From Gemmatimonadaceae bacterium (lineage in GTDB: Bacteria > Gemmatimonadota > Gemmatimonadetes > Gemmatimonadales > Gemmatimonadaceae), in the NCBI GenBank assembly GCA_037721215.1, contig JBBJNV010000030.1, positions 1 to 40,530 on the forward strand: a stretch of 40,530 bases of DNA, written 5' to 3'. The position numbers were made by a program, and so were the translations under genes. Below, piece by piece: positions 21,963 to 33,317 of this stretch. Under the pieces are notes generated by a model, which made no database searches, was not told the origin of the DNA, and worked only from the letters and a program-made list of their open reading frames with translations. How positions within the stretch are numbered: position 1 is the stretch's first letter; the number at the start of each line of letters is the position of its first letter.

Positions 21963-22148
21963 GCGGGTGCCCCGGAAAAAAGTCTGGTCAAGATAATACC
22001 GCGGCTGATGGTTGGCTGGCGGAATTTGCTCGCTTCCCTACATTGGACTGCCGAGGACTAACCAGCTTCGCGACCAGCCGGAGCCACCTCCGGTAACATA
22101 GGATGCAGGGTGGAGAGAATCGCGGCAAAATCGGCATCGGACGGGGAC

Positions 22149-23117
22149 ATGATACCAACGTCAGTTCGCATATGTTGTGGCCTCGTCGTAGCGCTATCGG
22201 CCTGCGCGCCATCGCCTCGCACGACCCCTGAACCGCTTTTGTCTCCAGGGGTGGAGGCAATCTCATTCCTTGGCGATTCTCTTCGCACTTTCCCGCTGGC
22301 GGCCGATACGCGCGCGCGTTACGAAGCACTGCTCGCGGAGGCGCGTGCATCATCCGACCGTGCGCCAACAAATGCCGATTCCATCGTGTGGCTCGGCCGG
22401 CGCCTTGCGTACCTCGGCCGCATTCGCGAGGCAATCGGCGTTTACACTCGCGGGATCGCCATCCATCCAGACAATGCGTGGCTGTATCGTCACCGCGGGC
22501 ACCGGTACATTACGGTGCGCGGCCTTCCCCGCGCCATCGCCGATTTCGAACGCGCGGCCGACCTCGTTCGCGGCGCACCTGACCAGATCGAGCCCGACGG
22601 GCAGCCGAACGCGCGCAACACGCCGATAGGCACCCTTCACTCGAACATCGACTATCACCTCGCGCTCGCGTATTACCTCTCCGGCGATTTTGCACGCGCC
22701 CTTCCCGTGTACCAGCGCGAGCTTGCCGGCCGAATCAACGACGACCGCCGCGTGTCGATCGCGCACTGGTATTACATGGCGCTCCGCCGGCTCGGCCGCG
22801 TCGATGAGGCCGCTCGTATTCTCGTGCCGATCAGCCGTGAGATGAAAGTGATCGAGAACGAGACATACCTGCGTCTGCTTCTGATGTACAAGGGCGAGCT
22901 TCCCGCGGATTCGGTGCTCTCCATGAATGCTTCCGGCGAAATGTCTGTCACCGACGCGACCGCGGCCTACGGCATCGGGAACTGGCATCTATATAACGGA
23001 CGCGCGGCTGAGGCGGAGCGGATTTTCGGGCGGATACTTGCCGGTGGCCAATGGGGCGCATTCGGATATATCGCGGCGGAGGCGGACCTCGCGCGCATGC
23101 GGTCAGGTTTACGATGA
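22149..23117 (+). CDS. TPR-repeat lipoprotein
   Basis: A 322-residue protein. The ATG at 22149 (upstream GGGGAC is a weak Shine-Dalgarno) is preferred over 22110 because it gives a lipoprotein leader, with a lipobox ending LSAC and Cys19. Helical TPR-type repeats follow: IREAIGVYTRGIAIHPDNAW, LPRAIADFERAADLV, a third with DYHLALAYYLSGDFARALPV and two more towards the C-terminus (YGIGNWHLYNGRAAEAERIF). It is likely a lipid-anchored scaffold of the periplasm or outer membrane. The partner is unknown. A GC-rich inverted repeat (CCGGAG/CTCCGG, 22078-22093) lies upstream. Confidence 0.85.
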   Translation: MIPTSVRICCGLVVALSACAPSPRTTPEPLLSPGVEAISFLGDSLRTFPLAADTRARYEALLAEARASSDRAPTNADSIVWLGRRLAYLGRIREAIGVYTRGIAIHPDNAWLYRHRGHRYITVRGLPRAIADFERAADLVRGAPDQIEPDGQPNARNTPIGTLHSNIDYHLALAYYLSGDFARALPVYQRELAGRINDDRRVSIAHWYYMALRRLGRVDEAARILVPISREMKVIENETYLRLLLMYKGELPADSVLSMNASGEMSVTDATAAYGIGNWHLYNGRAAEAERIFGRILAGGQWGAFGYIAAEADLARMRSGLR

Positions 23118-23366: not shown

Positions 23367-26129
23367 TTGTCTGATCCAAGGTCTATCCGCGGGGTGACCG
23401 CATTTTTTCTCGCCCTAATGGGCGCGATTTTTCCGCGGTCGAGTCCTGCGCAAGGCATCACGGGTGCATCGGTTCAGGGACGTATCGCGAGCGCTTCGGG
23501 AGCGGCAATGCCAGGGCGGCAGCGCGCTGTCAGTGAGCGGTCAACATTCACGGTTCAACGCGATTCAGATCGGCGGCGGTTCCAGCAACGATTTAGTAGG
23601 GATCAGTGCTACGCCCGGAGCAAGTGTGGGCGGAAAAATGATTTCGCTCGAAGCTCTGGAGGAGATTCGCGTCCTGGTCGCGCCCTTCGATGTAAGGCAG
23701 GGTGGATTCTCCGGCGGGCTGATCAACGCCGCGACGCGATCCGGAACAAATCAGCTTCGCGGGTCGGCATTCCTTTCTCATTCCCGTGCGGCGCTGGTTG
23801 GCCGGGACACGGCGGGCGCCAGTACGCCGACGTTCAATATTCTGCAATACGGATTGAGTCTCGGCGGGCCAATTCTCCGGGACCGTGCCCATTTTTTCGT
23901 TGTAGCCGACCTTCAGGCACGCGATGCAACGTTTGCCGGCCCGTCGACTGCCGATCCGTCAACAGGTATCAGCGACTCCACGGCAGCGCGCGCCAGGAAA
24001 GTATTCAGGGATACCTACGGATTCGACCCAGGGGGTAGCGAGTCGCCTGTAATCAACCAGCCAAACCGTAATATCTTCGTCAAGCTGTCGGCTCAACCCG
24101 CTCAAAATCACTGGCTTGAGCTTAGCCACAGCCGCGCCAATGCCAGCAGCTACGTGTTTAACCGGCTGGTTCGCAATCTGGAAGATCGGCAGGGCTGGCA
24201 GCTCTCCAATAGCGGCATCACGCAGCGGTCGAGCAGTGCGACCACGCGGCTGCGAGTGACCAGCGGTTTCGGCGAATTCACAAATGAACTCATCGCGAGC
24301 GCTGGAAGCATCGATGACAACCGGGATTCGCGCATCCGCACCCCCCTTTTCCTCGTGCAGGGCGATCTGTCTGGCAGGTACCTCGCGGCTGGTTCCGAAA
24401 AGAGCGCTCAGCGCACTGCCATCGAACAGCGCAGTATCGAGCTGACCGACAACGTGTCGTGGCACTACGGCAATCACATGATCACGGCTGGAACCCAGAA
24501 CCAGTTTCTCAGGGACAACTTCTTCCTGGGTGCCTGGGGGGTATGGACGTTTGCAAACGTCGGCGCACTTGAGCGTCGCGAGCCGTCGCGTTACGAGGTC
24601 GCACTCCCACTCCGCGAGGGAGGGCCACTCGCGGACTACTCTGCCAATCTGCTCGCAGGGTATCTCCAGGACAGGTGGAGCGTGACGCCACAGTTTACGC
24701 TGACAGGGGGACGAGGATCGACGTCCCCATCATGGATTCACCTCTTCGCAACCGGGCGCTCGCTAATAACGCACCCCTCGGCAATATCGACACGGGCGCG
24801 TTTCCATCGGGAAATCGTGTCATCTCGCCGAGGGTTGGATTCTCATGGCATAATCGAAGCTCGATGCTCCGGGGCGGGGTGGGTGGGTTTGCCGGCCGAC
24901 CACTTTTCGCGTGGCTTACGAATGCCTATGCAGGCACCGGGATGGAGCAGACTGTATTGATCTGTAATGCGCCCGGCACCGCGCCCGCGCCAACAACGGA
25001 CATTGCGCGGCTTCCACGAAATTGCATAAACACGCCCGCGGTGCCTGCCCCACCGCGAATCACATATTTTGCGTCAGACTTTCGCTTCCAGCAGGCCATC
25101 AAGTACGTGCTAGGCGTGGACCATCAGCTGGGCCTCGGTTTCACGACTTCGCTCGATGTGATTCATACGAGGACGAGAAATCACCTTCACGTGGGTGACG
25201 TGAATCTGGTAGAGCGTGGAGTTAATGCCGAAGGCCGGATGGTCTATGGAACGCTCTCGACTTCTCAGGGTGGTGTCGTCTCGCACCCAACCCGTGTCGA
25301 CAGTCTGAACTTCGGGCCGGTTTATCGCTTTGGCAATATCTCGGCCGACCGGTCGACCTCGGTTGCGGCAGAGGTCCAGAAGCACTGGACCGGCGGGGGG
25401 CAGTTGCAGTTTGGATACAGCTGGTCGCGGTCGGAAGACGTCATGAGTCTCTTGGGGTTTAACGGACTCGTAATCCTGACAACCAATCCCATCGACGGCT
25501 CCATCGCGAAACGCAACCTCCGTCGGTCGGCGCGGGACATCCCTCACAATCTTGTCGCCACGGCTGTTGTGCCCGTCCGCTACGGACTCACGGCATCGAT
25601 ATTTTTTCGCGCGCGCTCGGGAACCCCTTACGCCTATGTGAATAACGGTGACGCCAATGCCGACGGTACCCAGGGCAACGACCTTGCTTACATACCACAT
25701 GACGCGGCTGATGTCAGCCTGGCGAATCCGGCGGACTATGCGCTGCTGGATGCCTTCATAGACACCGAGTCATGCCTTCGGAATCAGCGCGGTCACATCA
25801 TGTCACGCAACTCGTGCCGCAATCCAGCCGTGCAAAGCCTCGACCTCCGACTTGCAAAGAGTTTTGGTACGCGAAGGGAAGAGAGGTTGGAGGTCAGCGC
25901 CGATGTTTTCAATCTTCCCAATCTGTTGAACCATGGCTCGGGGCTGGTGCGGGAGACGACCGGCCGGGAAGAGACGCAATTGCTGACGGTCGTTGGCTGG
26001 GACGGGGCCGCGAATCGCCCGCGGTATCGAATTCCCACGGCCAGCGGCCAACTCGCCGTGAGAAGGAACGGAATCGTGGTCGATGCGTCCCGGTGGAGAA
26101 TGCAGCTCGCCGCCAGATACAGCTTTTGA
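23367..26129 (+). pseudogene. Oar-like TonB-dependent receptor, broken by internal deletion and frame changes
   Basis: A remnant of a large outer-membrane receptor with an N-terminal carboxypeptidase-regulatory-like domain. A TTG at 23367 starts a secretion leader (FFLALMGAIFPRSSPAQG) and the first strand of that domain (VQGRIASASGAAMPG). At about 23517-23525 the sequence jumps directly, and in another frame, into the late plug domain (LSVSGQHSRFNAIQIGGG, then FDVRQGGFSGGLINAATRSG). Roughly 120 residues are missing there. The barrel continues to the G-run at 24706-24710, where the frame shifts again; one added G would restore LTGGTRIDVP. The last frame runs to the terminal aromatic motif (AARYSF). 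The receptor is thus probably non-functional, unless the assembly is wrong. Substrate unknown. Confidence 0.8.
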
Positions 26130-26262: not shown

Positions 26263-27789
26263 TCATGGCGGGCAATTTCGCGCGGCATCGTAGGCTACGC
26301 GGGAGCCATTCGGCATCGTTTGCCCATCGACAAGCAGCGTGTTCCCATTCCCTGCAGGATGAGCGAACCACGCATCTTTCCAATCGAGGTCTCCACCCAA
26401 CTTGAGAGAATAAGTGGAATTGCGGAGGTACGCACTGCTCTGAAAACCAGCCGACGAGGCTACGCCGAGGCCCGTCGAGTTCCTGGCGAAAGAAACGAGC
26501 AGGTTATTCTGACAACTGCCACTGATCGTGTTGCCCTGTAGTGTAACATCGATGTCGCCCCTGAGAGCTGTATTGGCAACAGGGAAGGCCGCTTCGACCA
26601 TTACCCCGAATGTGTTGTTGACGAAAGTGTTGTCGCGTGCAGTCACCCGTGAAGATCCGATTACATCAGGTGCACCGGGTCCCACTCCCCCGACCCGAAG
26701 CCCTGCCCCCACCGGTTTCTGCTGGTGATTTCGAACTTCGTTGTTGATCACAGTGGCTGTAACGGTGGCCGTGGCCGGAAGTACGAGCGGCTCAACGATT
26801 GCAGGAACGCGGTAAAAACCCATTGGCAGAACAATGATGCCAGGGATGCCACCCGGTCCTATCAGCCGGTTGCCGGATACCTGATAATCGCCGGGGCCGT
26901 CGAGGCAGATCCCGCACGATCCGCCGCGGCCGCTGAAGTAGTTCTTGTCCACGCGTCCGCTGGCTGCCTGCAAATGTATCGGTTCGCTGAATCCTCCCTC
27001 GAACCGATTGCCCTGGATCACGAGATCCTGTGCCCGCAATGCGATCACCCCCTTTCCGGCGGGTACAGCATCAGCGCTGCCATTGCCTGACTGGAAAACG
27101 AAGCCTTCGATAACAATCCCATGGCCCTTGGGACCATCGGGGTGCGCGTTGACGATTATCATCGGTTCAATGAGGTGACTCTGAGGTCCGGTAGTCCCCC
27201 TTTCAACTGCAAGGCCGGGACTCGCGACGAGTGTTGTAACTTCAGCCGCTTCGCCCGTACCGGTCGCCCTTCCGCCGGCGTCAATCTGCATCTTGAAGGA
27301 TCCCTGCAGCGTTATACCGGGAACGTCGAAAACCAGCGGGAAGCGCTCGAAAGCAGGGTCTGATGACTCCTTTGTGCTTCCCTGAAAAACTCCCGGGCCT
27401 ACCGCGATGGTGATCCGACAGGATGCAAGCGCACCTTCGTTCCGCGCCAGGCGAATGGTGCGTGCCGCCGCAATCGCATCGCCGATGCGGGTAAAGCGGT
27501 TGGAGTCGGGAATCGCGCTGGCCTGCTTGTCCACAACCAGGCGGGTAACGTAGTCACCGTGGCTTCGATGGGTCGAAAGCTCTGAAGAATAAATCTCGAG
27601 AAGGCTTCCGGTCGTGCCCGAGAGGTGGCACACGGTGAGCTGGTCTCCTGTCGGGCCGACGGGCTCGCTGCACGAAACCACTGCTGCGGTGACGATCGCC
27701 GAGCAAAGCACTGCGACTACCTTTCCTGGGCGGGCGTTGAAGGTTGGGGGAGAAGGGGCAGGTGAGTAAGGAGCAGGCGGATGATTCAA
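26263..27789 (-). CDS. secreted right-handed beta-helix lipoprotein
   Basis: A 508-residue protein with a late lipobox-like VVSC (Cys40) after a hydrophobic stretch (VVAVLCSAIVTAAVV). Just after it comes VCHLSGTTGSLLEIYSSELS followed by HRSHGDY, the CHxxG...HxxHGD segment found in many secreted bacterial proteins. The remainder has the short repeating turns of a parallel beta-helix (GHGIVIEGFVFQSGNG, DLVIQGNRFEGGF, GDYQVSGNRLIG, VTARDNTFVNNTFG, VTLQGNTISGSC), as in NosD or pectate-lyase-like proteins. It is probably a surface or periplasmic protein that binds polysaccharide, but catalytic residues cannot be assigned. The start at 27789 is a proline-rich stretch before the hydrophobic core; a shorter start is possible. 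It follows the regulator gene on the same strand with a 146-base gap. Confidence 0.8.
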   Translation of the reverse strand: MNHPPAPYSPAPSPPTFNARPGKVVAVLCSAIVTAAVVSCSEPVGPTGDQLTVCHLSGTTGSLLEIYSSELSTHRSHGDYVTRLVVDKQASAIPDSNRFTRIGDAIAAARTIRLARNEGALASCRITIAVGPGVFQGSTKESSDPAFERFPLVFDVPGITLQGSFKMQIDAGGRATGTGEAAEVTTLVASPGLAVERGTTGPQSHLIEPMIIVNAHPDGPKGHGIVIEGFVFQSGNGSADAVPAGKGVIALRAQDLVIQGNRFEGGFSEPIHLQAASGRVDKNYFSGRGGSCGICLDGPGDYQVSGNRLIGPGGIPGIIVLPMGFYRVPAIVEPLVLPATATVTATVINNEVRNHQQKPVGAGLRVGGVGPGAPDVIGSSRVTARDNTFVNNTFGVMVEAAFPVANTALRGDIDVTLQGNTISGSCQNNLLVSFARNSTGLGVASSAGFQSSAYLRNSTYSLKLGGDLDWKDAWFAHPAGNGNTLLVDGQTMPNGSRVAYDAARNCPP

Positions 27790-27935
27790 AGGGCTCTCGC
27801 AGAAAAAGGATAAGCCGAATGTGGCGTGGCCGGGTGATTTGCCCGTGATTCTGCCGTCCTACGGGTGTTTTCCCCTCGAAGTATCTATTGCATCGGGGTT
27901 AAGCAAGCATCCCGGCGGCGGTTCCAGGGTCGACT

Positions 27936-30353
27936 TCATCTCAAAGGCATCGGACCTACGCGCGCCATTATCGCCTCAAAGCGGGGTGTGCCTCGCACAA
28001 CATCTACTCCAGGCATGCAGGGGAGACGGAATAGATTTGGATCTTTCTCGGCGGCAAGAAGCTCGAGCTCTCGGTATCCGCCGTAGATATCACCCGATTC
28101 GAAGCGAAGCTGCATGAGCTTCAGCGGAGACGTCCACCCACGCTTTCCTTGCTCCTGAAGCTTCTCGAGCTTTCGGCGTCCGTCCAAACGCTTAGCGCTC
28201 CAGTATCCCTCATCGCCACTCGCACGGGCGAGTGCCCTCGCAAGCGCGGTATCGCCGGCATCCGATGCCAGAATTCGCCAGGCAACGATTGCGTCATCGT
28301 ACCGGCTCATCCGCGCGAATGAGCGGATCTGTCCCGCGCGCGCGATCGTGTCCGAGGGATTCAGTACAAGCTCGGCTTCGTACAGCTTGAGTGCTGCGTG
28401 CGGCAGCCCGGCGCATAGCTCGGTGGCAGCTTCCCTGTCCAGATAGTAAGAATTGAGGGGATCAAGCTGGCGGACGAAGCGAATGGCGTCTCTGGCCGAA
28501 TCCCATCGCCACGCACTCCTATAGAGAGAATTTTCGACCTCAAAGATTTGGGCATTGCCAGGCTCAACGGCCTTTGCTTTTTGAATCAGCTCGAATCCGA
28601 TTGCGAGATTTCGGTAGCGCATGGCTCGAAGGAGACCGAGACTCGCCCATGCTGTCCCCTCGAGACTGTCAAGAGCGAGCGCCCGTGCCCCTGCCGCCGA
28701 AGCACGGTTGTATCCTACGTCAAAGGGAATCCTCTCGCCGGCCACGTGGAACGTCCACGCCGCGGTCAATCCCGCCCAGGCCCTGGAGTTCGACGGGTCA
28801 ACGGCGACAGCCTTTTCGAAGAGTCGCTTTGCAGCGGCATGGTTCCGTATGGTCATTTGCTGGTAGAATCCTTCGAGCATCAGCCTATACGACTCGGGAT
28901 TGATCGCGCGCTCCGATACGCGGGGGACAGCCGGCATGGGAACGCGAAAAATTTCTCCGGCTACGGCCGCCGCCAGCTCACTCTCGACGGTGCGGAGCCC
29001 AGCGATGGTAAAGCGGCGCGGCGGTATGTGCTTCTCACCAGACGTTTCAACGTCCAACACTGCGGCTCGCACTTCGAAAGAGCCTCCTCTCCGGGCTAAC
29101 GTGGTTTTCAACAGGATATTGGACCCGAACTGCCGTCCGACCGCCTTAAGATCATGACGAGTCGCCGCCGGCCATTCGGACCGAGCGCCCGAGCGGACGG
29201 TGAGCCCTCCCATTCCTTCAAGGCGGCGCGCCACTCCCTCTGCGAGACCAGCGGCAAGGTAGGCCTGCTTTGGGTCGCCTGTTTCGTTCTCCATCGGCAG
29301 CACTACAAGGCTTCGTGACGAAGAAGCAACTTCGGCGGCCGTACCCGCGGTGTTCTCCACGCGCACGGTGTTCTCCGCGCGCGCCGTGTTCGCTTGACGC
29401 CGGAGCCCGGCAAACACCACAATCGCCGCGGCGAAGCCCGTGACCACGACGGCAAACCACAACCGCGGACGCGCTTGCCTTCCGGTTGTACTCGATGGGG
29501 CAGGCGCAGCGAATGGAAGGACCCCGCCACCGGCTTCGGTTTCGGCGATTGGACGCGAGGCTGCCGACGAGTGTTGCGGCGAAGAGGAAACACCCTTTGA
29601 CGATGAAGCGCCTGCCGGCGTGGTCTGTAAATCCCTCCGCGTCCGCACGGCGTCCAGCAGCGCGACGGTCTCTGCAGATGGTCTTACGCCAAATTCTTCA
29701 GCAACATGATCCCTGAACCGCTCGTAAACCGCGAACGCCTGTGAGCGATCGCCGGCACGATCGAGCAGCGTGATCCATCTGCGCGCCGCTACCTCATCGT
29801 CCGGGTTCAGCTCGGAGCAGCGGCGTGCGGCGTCGACAGCACCAGCAATATCGCCTGAGCGCTCCCGACTCTCGGCGAGTAGAACGGCCGCGTTGAGAGC
29901 TTGCTTTTTCAACCGGCTGCGCTCATTGCCGAGCCACTTCTCGAACTCCTCGGCGTCCGGTATGTGAAGGCCAGGCAACAGGTCTCCGGCATATCGCGCG
30001 AGAGCATAAGCATGACGGCCGGCGGAAAGATCTTCCGCCAATGCCGCCACGTCTGTCGTGATCAGCGCCGGATCGAGGCTTACCTCGTCGTCGCCGCGGC
30101 TTCGAATTGCTCCATCGACTAGATGCCCGCGTAGAACGTAAAGAGCGCGACGAAGCGCAGGTCGAGCCTTACCCTGATCGAGCTCGGGCCAGAATGTGAC
30201 GAGCAGGGAATCGCGACGATGCCAGGTTCCTGGCCGAGGCATCGCGAGATATGAAAGAAGGGCCAGATGCTTCGGCTGCCGAAGCAGCGCGTCCAACTCT
30301 CCACCTTCCGCGTCGGACAGGCCGATGCCGCCAAGCATCCGCAACGTATACAT
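27936..30353 (-). CDS. membrane-anchored BTAD/TPR transcriptional regulator
   Basis: An 805-residue regulator. The N-terminus (LRMLGGIGLSDAEGGELDAL, RQPKHLALLSYLA, RALYVLRGHLV) is the winged-helix DNA-binding part of SARP/BTAD activators. Residues about 100-240 form the bacterial transcriptional activator helical domain, with the typical YERFRDHVAEEFGVRPSAET. A low-complexity linker leads to a membrane helix at about 298-317 (LWFAVVVTGFAAAIVVFAGL). The outer part starts with VVLPMENETGDPKQAYLAAG and VRSGARSEW (a FlgO/TolB-like sensor fold) and continues into TPR repeats to the end. I use ATG 30353 (MYTLRMLGG) rather than 30521, which would run into the uvrA upstream region. It probably signals from the periplasm. 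The target genes are unknown. Confidence 0.82.
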   Translation of the reverse strand: MYTLRMLGGIGLSDAEGGELDALLRQPKHLALLSYLAMPRPGTWHRRDSLLVTFWPELDQGKARPALRRALYVLRGHLVDGAIRSRGDDEVSLDPALITTDVAALAEDLSAGRHAYALARYAGDLLPGLHIPDAEEFEKWLGNERSRLKKQALNAAVLLAESRERSGDIAGAVDAARRCSELNPDDEVAARRWITLLDRAGDRSQAFAVYERFRDHVAEEFGVRPSAETVALLDAVRTRRDLQTTPAGASSSKGVSSSPQHSSAASRPIAETEAGGGVLPFAAPAPSSTTGRQARPRLWFAVVVTGFAAAIVVFAGLRRQANTARAENTVRVENTAGTAAEVASSSRSLVVLPMENETGDPKQAYLAAGLAEGVARRLEGMGGLTVRSGARSEWPAATRHDLKAVGRQFGSNILLKTTLARRGGSFEVRAAVLDVETSGEKHIPPRRFTIAGLRTVESELAAAVAGEIFRVPMPAVPRVSERAINPESYRLMLEGFYQQMTIRNHAAAKRLFEKAVAVDPSNSRAWAGLTAAWTFHVAGERIPFDVGYNRASAAGARALALDSLEGTAWASLGLLRAMRYRNLAIGFELIQKAKAVEPGNAQIFEVENSLYRSAWRWDSARDAIRFVRQLDPLNSYYLDREAATELCAGLPHAALKLYEAELVLNPSDTIARAGQIRSFARMSRYDDAIVAWRILASDAGDTALARALARASGDEGYWSAKRLDGRRKLEKLQEQGKRGWTSPLKLMQLRFESGDIYGGYRELELLAAEKDPNLFRLPCMPGVDVVRGTPRFEAIMARVGPMPLR

Positions 30354-30360
30354 GTGAGTG

Positions 30361-30389
30361 AAGCTAGGGGCGTTCCGCAAATGTCGCAA
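30361..30389 (-). promoter_or_regulatory. possible promoter of BTAD regulator (near-leaderless)
   Basis: On the minus strand TTGCGA (30389-30384) and TAGCTT (30366-30361) are separated by 17 bases. The -10-like box lies only 7 bases before the chosen ATG at 30353, so the transcript would start at or next to the start codon. Both hexamers are imperfect, so this is a weak prediction. Confidence 0.3.
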
Positions 30390-30479
30390 AAACGGGCGAG
30401 CATCAGCTGCTAAGACCCGGGATCCGCTCCGACTCCGCTGCGCTTGTATCTCATTGGTGAATCCGTCACCTTGAGAGCT

Positions 30480-33317
<2,838 letters not shown>

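Follow-up and report, generated by a model that had tools for sequence, protein, structure and literature searches.

A putative membrane-tethered SARP-type regulator and its likely target, an adjacent beta-helix lipoprotein gene, in a Gemmatimonadaceae bacterium

SARPs are known chiefly as cytoplasmic activators of antibiotic clusters in actinomycetes, and the DNA-binding head of CadC is built without a BTAD domain. In the available portions of PMC10936776, SARP promoters are described as carrying direct repeats 11 or 22 bp apart, the 3' repeat lying 8 bp from the -10, and the NOD/TPR part of AfsR is described as inhibiting its head. No description of membrane-tethered SARPs, or of a BTAD/beta-helix pairing in Gemmatimonadota, was found in the accessible portions of the open-licence PMC literature. 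We analysed computationally a stretch of 40,530 nt (contig JBBJNV010000030.1 of assembly GCA_037721215.1, from a Gemmatimonadaceae bacterium), referred to below as the window, which encodes a BTAD protein. The most likely interpretation is that this protein is a regulator in a soil-type bacterium that is apparently anchored in the membrane and switches on the neighbouring lipoprotein gene. More fully, we assign a probability of roughly two in three to its being a membrane-tethered SARP-type activator that acts on the downstream beta-helix lipoprotein gene by way of direct repeats, is gated by its tail and belongs to a family with adjacent exported targets. This reading builds on results obtained by computation, namely the domain layout, the TM segment, the gene pairing, the 11-bp repeats, the subset with an 8-bp gap that faces the divergent neighbour and the box in the window's own promoter. 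Coordinates are collected in Table 1.

Table 1. Positions in the window of the regulator, its parts, the candidate operator and the neighbouring genes.
Feature	Position	Strand	Details and basis
Predicted membrane-anchored BTAD (SARP-type) regulator	27936..30353	-	805 aa from ATG 30353; coordinates include the stop
SARP-type head, winged helix + BTAD, residues 1-243	29625..30353	-	Pfam BTAD, structure model, Foldseek
Predicted single TM helix, residues 299-317	29403..29459	-	Kyte-Doolittle; hydrophobic helix at the same place in 24/35 family rows
TolB-like alpha/beta segment, about residues 346-470 (label weak)	28944..29318	-	alignments A5/A6; not confidently modelled
TPR solenoid, about residues 484-768	28050..28904	-	model, Foldseek, sub-threshold Pfam TPR_19
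Candidate operator, two 11-bp direct repeats AATCACGGGCA / AATCACCCGGC	27829..27850	-	repeat search, promoter comparison
Weak -10-like hexamer CACATT	27818..27823	-	8 bp after second repeat (heptamer ATCACCC)
Beta-helix lipoprotein, 508 aa, lipobox Cys at residue 40; proposed target	26263..27789	-	Pfam Beta_helix E=1.7e-7
OMP_b-brl_4 outer-membrane barrel gene	23367..26129	+	spread over more than one frame

The BTAD DNA-binding head proposed in the initial annotation is present. Pfam places the domain at residues 115-237 (E=3.9e-14, above the cut-off), and in an AlphaFold model of the 805-aa regulator, built on 3 sequences, the head has pLDDT values mostly between 70 and 90. When this model was compared with the PDB by Foldseek, the head resembled AfsR (8k60 and 8hvr, ranks 14 and 20, 24-25% identity) and EmbR (2ff4 and 2fez, ranks 26 and 34); these are outranked by TPR superhelices, which align to the other half of the protein. 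There is no Pfam winged-helix match in the regulator, and the winged helix is based on the structure match. The regulator begins, as SARPs do, with an OmpR-type winged helix followed by BTAD at the N-terminus, whereas a head of the CadC/ToxR type would lack the BTAD that is present here.

The single TM helix annotated at about residues 298-317 is likewise borne out by one strong hydrophobic segment, the top 19-mer of the protein with a Kyte-Doolittle value of 2.33 (the runner-up reaches 1.02); the AlphaFold model places a helix at 305-324 with low confidence. Our family alignment has 39 rows, of which 4 without any tail were left aside, and a hydrophobic helix directly after the head occurs in 24 of the remaining 35, all of which hold some tail. 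K+R is higher in the N-flank than in the C-flank of this helix in 20 of these 24 members, with 3 ties and 1 reversal, and this positive-inside count favours a cytoplasmic head. The sole reversed case is the window regulator itself, with three K+R before the helix and four after it, so that the predicted topology of cytoplasmic head and outer tail is sustained by the charges of its relatives and not by its own. These ambiguous flanks, together with relatives that have no TM helix and yet adjoin the same kind of neighbour, are what might suggest a SARP of the soluble type, whose TPR part would lie in the cytoplasm and, as in AfsR, read a signal from there, with the hydrophobic segment serving only as a peripheral anchor. 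Both the hydrophobicity of the 19 residues and the recurrence of the helix and of its charge balance in the family argue against this alternative, which we consider unlikely, and membrane tethering is retained as the preferred reading.

For the tail, which had been annotated as TPR/TolB-like, the TPR solenoid stands, by the model and by Foldseek. A helical solenoid is modelled at 486-779 (ten-residue mean pLDDT mostly 58-89, with one at 44 and the last at 36), and the top two PDB matches of the regulator model are TPR superhelices; the C-terminal TPRs, TPR_19 included, fall below the Pfam threshold, and TPR_14 passes the cut-off only within BTAD (residues 154-194). The alpha/beta segment may be of the kind named TolB-like/COG5616. 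The label is weak because a FlgO match was obtained in only 1 of 9 relatives (Pfam, E=1e-3), TolB_N in L058 was sub-threshold, the window regulator gave no Pfam match in this part, and a search for PDB relatives returned 4 matches at E<=10, the best at E 0.087, to unrelated molecules and with no CadC chain among them. The same tail module lies behind Ser/Thr kinase heads, in L065 of the window's own genome and in L051, beside a beta-helix gene.

The beta-helix gene lies 146 bp downstream of the regulator gene on the same strand. Its lipobox cysteine is present in 13 of 13 aligned members and also in G434; the structure model of the protein (pLDDT 42.5) was too poor for use. At residues of about 54-79 there is an N-terminal C-H ... 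H-x-x-H-G-D motif, which is retained in approximately half of the relatives, with CEPG...GGY in its place in the others; as a guess, this region resembles a metal-binding module. On the far side of the lipoprotein gene, the OMP_b-brl_4 sequence consists of overlapping ORFs in different frames (23367-24038, 23464-24960 and 24675-26129) and is for this reason either a pseudogene or affected by sequencing errors. Its homologue in L054 is in one frame, between regulator and beta-helix gene. A general partnership with this barrel was set aside, since OMP_b-brl_4 lies within two genes of a family head in just 3 of 20 cases in 6 genomes, which is no more than suggestive. On the other side of the regulator gene lies uvrA in divergent orientation, the two ATGs being separated by about 126 bp (30353-30480); a near-repeat at 11 bp, CGCAGCGGA/CGGAGCGGA, occurs in this gap, without the box defined below. 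A simple promoter and terminator scan of the window gave nothing above chance.

Relatives of the BTAD protein at E<=1e-10 were found in 56 of 61 genomes searched (the window's own included), often many per genome; no homologue came up when named genomes were scanned with the BTAD protein. The beta-helix protein is rarer, with 14 places in 13 of 288 genomes of the order; a phylum sample, in which 12 of 395 genomes carry it, added one genome, G434. The beta-helix alignment A2, run against named genomes, matched a Gemmatimonadales MAG (UBA4718) and a Gemmatimonadetes MAG (2013_60CM_65_52). One place, in G025, was dropped because it is partial, no regulator being detected in its 12 kb, and 14 near-full-length loci were kept. 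Co-occurrence of the two genes had been set beforehand as the test by which the proposal could fail, and the pairing was found: in 10 of the 14 loci in the phylum a BTAD-type regulator adjoins the beta-helix gene or lies within two genes of it (the window, L048, L049, L052, L053, L054, L044, L056, L058 and L079), although in L052, L053 and L056 the regulator has no Pfam BTAD and was assigned by the head model. One gene intervenes in L053 and two in L054; the arrangement is tandem in the window and divergent in L048, L049, L044, L058 and L079. If only Pfam BTAD matches are counted, 6 loci have one within 5 kb of the beta-helix gene, where 0.19 would be expected, one of the six (G222) being just under the family cut-off, and in G030 the lone Pfam BTAD match adjoins the lone beta-helix gene, the A7 head model adding one weak head in that genome.

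Among the other four loci, in L051 the beta-helix gene is followed not by a BTAD regulator but by genes for an ECF sigma factor and a Ser/Thr kinase-TM-TPR protein (1 of 14); this regulator swap (G283:C1, 9040-13770) occurs in a genome whose other copy, L054, does have a BTAD regulator. In L050 and L055 no regulator is in view, the contigs ending close upstream of the beta-helix gene, and in L057 (G039) the beta-helix gene is kept with no regulator within about 8.5 kb on either side. Big_5 proteins adjoin beta-helix genes that have no visible BTAD neighbour (L057, 7105-14500; L055, 1541-3064), and L057 additionally encodes a CHAT-TPR protein of 1426 aa. Placing the 10 linked heads on a tree of 38 heads takes 4 changes, against 9.1 in shuffles, and the starred branches force 4; the bootstrap is not settled and losses are indistinguishable from gains. 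Because the linked heads require at least four changes, we read the beta-helix gene as having probably been recruited repeatedly by different regulators, and a single ancestral pairing is disfavoured.

The TM helix is not conserved among the linked regulators. Four have it (window, L048, L054 and L079), five have no TM-like segment after the head (L049, L052, L053, L056 and L058), and the one in L044 is truncated. Membrane anchoring is therefore dispensable for control of the beta-helix target, and the term "CadC/ToxR-like" in the initial annotation describes a layout and not a family. Beyond layout that relationship gained no support, the head being like those of SARPs, AfsR and EmbR; nor did homology of the tail to CadC, as the tail profile aligned with K-12 CadC (hhalign) at a probability of 0.3 per cent (E 0.22), which is not significant. 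The absence of a TM helix in five of the ten linked regulators also bears on whether the lipoprotein is a physical sensor partner of the periplasmic tail and not (or not only) a target, as in a co-component of the CadC/ToxR type. In the window the neighbour is indeed conserved, exported and on the same strand, and VtrA/VtrC and ToxR/ToxS pairs follow such a logic in the accessible portions of PMC9214523. However, an exported lipoprotein is out of reach of the TPR part in the five proteins without a TM helix, the head tree requires four or more changes for the linked heads, a kinase/sigma pair can substitute for the regulator, and the promoter box described next accounts for the linkage as control. 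Physical partnership is therefore a doubtful alternative, slightly less probable than the soluble one. The lipoprotein had been put forward as target or partner, and it is the target half of that proposal, preferred here, that survives: the TM-less linked regulators make it better viewed as a target, and the SARP-type direct-repeat box in the promoter of the beta-helix gene makes that role likely.

The lead to an operator came from the repeats listed in Table 1, in the gap before the beta-helix gene of the window. On their own they agree at 7 of 9 positions, which is not significant (shuffle p about 0.09), and the repeats were then compared across the family. In the upstreams of 38 BTAD genes, identical 5-mers 11 bp apart occur at 10.7/kb, the background being 1.6/kb; seven of the 8 other spacings compared stay near background, the exception being 22 bp (6.6 vs 1.6/kb). 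In 29 unlinked BTAD upstreams spacing 11 is the first of 33 (z 3.5-4.2), and the most enriched repeated tetramer in BTAD upstreams is GTGA/TCAC (8 vs 0.34). Upstream of the 10 BTAD-linked beta-helix genes spacing 11 again comes first, once tied (z 2.2-3.3; without the window 2.0-3.0). In the 4 other beta-helix upstreams it ranks only 5-10, yet two of these, L050 and L055, carry the box. Compared with 148 control upstreams, the beta-helix upstream repeats have p values of 0.002-0.043. These 148 upstreams, like the 105 control neighbours used below, derive from genes that we called ourselves in the fetched loci; BTAD genes were left among them, so that the control sets should err on the conservative side.

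We define the box as SAC-N8-SAC-N10-YANNNT, that is, SAC repeats at 11 bp, an 8-bp gap and a -10-like hexamer, its SAC core and YANNNT having been chosen on some loci that were counted later. It is present in 6 of all 14 beta-helix start-codon upstreams, the window and L055 included (the others being L048, L049, L050 and L044), compared with 2 of the 148 control genes. The background rate amounts to 0.0058 per region, and when the spacing or the gap is shifted the count is 0-1 of 16. In L079 a box lies about 300 bp ahead of the beta-helix start, and the strict box is absent from L051, L052, L053, L056, L057 and L058. The L054 operon and the L060 Big_2 promoters are also boxed and were added after repeats had been noticed there. 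In L054, whose regulator is an orthologue (42% identity over 808 aa), TCAC occurs four times at 11-bp steps and is followed after 8 bp by TAGGCT, ahead of the Big_2 and beta-helix genes; this box lies between the OMP_b-brl_4 and Big_2 genes if Big_2 starts at ATG 7688. L060, also with an orthologue (43%), shows two TCAC pairs. One stands ahead of a Big_2 lipoprotein gene and is followed after 8 bp by CACCCT; the other, with CACTCT likewise after 8 bp, falls within the first part of the following Big_2 ORF, as that ORF was called.

The box has a direction. Of the 38 BTAD upstreams, 10 have it pointing towards the divergent neighbour and none towards the BTAD gene, five of the 10 being beta-helix-linked loci, at least three of which (L012=L048, L028=L049 and L044) share the box already counted for the beta-helix genes; shifted controls give 2 at gap 6 and otherwise 0. 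Without the SAC core, TANNNT was found in 7 of these 38 regions at gap 8 and in 10 at gap 11, and gap 8 is not singled out, but all 7 cases at gap 8 are on the divergent strand. We therefore turned to a held-out set of 60 further BTAD loci, none of them in the earlier repeat or box counts. Here 5-mers at 11 bp occur at 11.2/kb, against 1.2-3.7/kb at 13 other spacings, and spacing 11 is first of 33 (z 4.7-4.9). The box occurs in 8 regions in the divergent sense and in 0 in the BTAD sense, none of 34 other spacing and gap settings gives more than 1 on either strand, and the core-free test gives a broad peak at gap 8 (6, 8, 6 and 6 at gaps 7-10 on the divergent strand; 0-2 in the BTAD sense at any gap). 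The held-out set answers the bias in choosing the core for the family, and not for the site in the window. At the family level the SARP pattern of repeats at 11 or 22 bp is thus observed, the 8 bp to the -10 being kept in a subset (10 of 38; 8 of 60). By a simple signal test the divergent neighbour is exported in 20 of 39 BTAD loci and in 25 of 58 held-out ones (two short loci omitted), compared with 13 of 105 controls; without the near-copies L008 and L015 the first comparison becomes 18 of 37 vs 13 of 105 (p 1.5e-5). The window is not among the 20, for its divergent neighbour is uvrA, which is not exported, and its exported neighbour lies downstream.

Within the window the only intergenic TCACN7TCAC precedes the beta-helix gene, the other lying inside ORF 22110-23117. 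In the whole genome TCACN7TCACN10YANNNT has 4 matches, and by our own gene calls only that of the window is intergenic and faces a gene start. ATCACN6ATCAC has 9 matches, of which 7 are inside called ORFs and 1 is the window's; the remaining one (L094) falls into the 10 bp that separate two ORFs of the same strand. A wider regulon in this genome was rejected on these counts (7 of 9 matches inside ORFs; 1 of 4 boxes with a -10 intergenic). The genome holds just one other head of the SARP family by the A7 model. Upstream of a paralogue, L002 (G000:C10, about 17.5-18.3 kb), AGAGTT occurs three times at 11-bp steps, and an OMP_b-brl_4 gene adjoins this paralogue. That the neighbourhood arose by chance or by generic clustering of envelope genes, the box belonging to another regulator, is improbable: L057 without a regulator and the degenerate box in the window would fit, but the Pfam-BTAD adjacencies far exceed the number expected, the sole other head in the genome has different upstream repeats (AGAGTT), and the family rule was replicated in held-out loci.

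As preferred here, activation of the lipoprotein gene by a tethered SARP would proceed as follows. The TM helix would keep the head at the inner membrane, and the winged helix and BTAD, in the cytoplasm, would bind as a dimer to the two 11-bp repeats. The bound head would then recruit RNA polymerase to the beta-helix gene, whose -10-like box is 8 bp downstream. The C-terminal alpha/beta and TPR part would face the periplasm and sense some signal there, and it most likely gates the head, like the NOD/TPR part in AfsR. The regulator would belong to a large Gemmatimonadota family, many members of which may control an adjacent gene for an exported protein. On a broader proposal our opinion is evenly divided: that Gemmatimonadota possess an expanded, mostly membrane-tethered SARP family of one-gene routes, each activating its own adjacent exported-protein gene through an 11-bp-repeat box, with a tail exchangeable between SARP and Ser/Thr kinase heads and with one beta-helix lipoprotein placed several times under different such regulators. 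If this is true, a SARP head is used where Proteobacteria use CadC/ToxR, and signalling in Gemmatimonadota, a little-studied phylum, would become directly testable through a large membrane-tethered SARP branch whose operator can be read and whose exported target lies next to it. The operator rule would also allow sequence-based prediction of targets for many unannotated BTAD proteins.

Compared with known systems, the regulator shares with AfsR and other SARPs and with EmbR the N-terminal winged helix and BTAD, the direct repeats at 11 or 22 bp with 8 bp to the -10, and the C-terminal TPR. It differs from AfsR in having a TM helix and an alpha/beta segment in place of the NOD module, and from SARPs in that it would act on an adjacent lipoprotein gene and not on antibiotic genes, and in its phylum, Gemmatimonadota. 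With CadC, as described in the accessible portions of PMC9214523, it has in common a winged-helix head, one TM helix and a possible alpha/beta and TPR layout at the C-terminus; unlike CadC it has a BTAD between winged helix and TM helix and a SARP-type direct-repeat operator. VtrA/VtrC and ToxR/ToxS likewise combine a membrane regulator with a neighbouring gene for an exported protein, but here the neighbour is a beta-helix lipoprotein, the TM helix is absent from five of ten linked regulators and the pairing observed is one of genes. Finally, the Ser/Thr kinase-TM-TPR proteins found with an ECF sigma factor carry the same tail module, with a kinase output where the SARP head would bind DNA directly.
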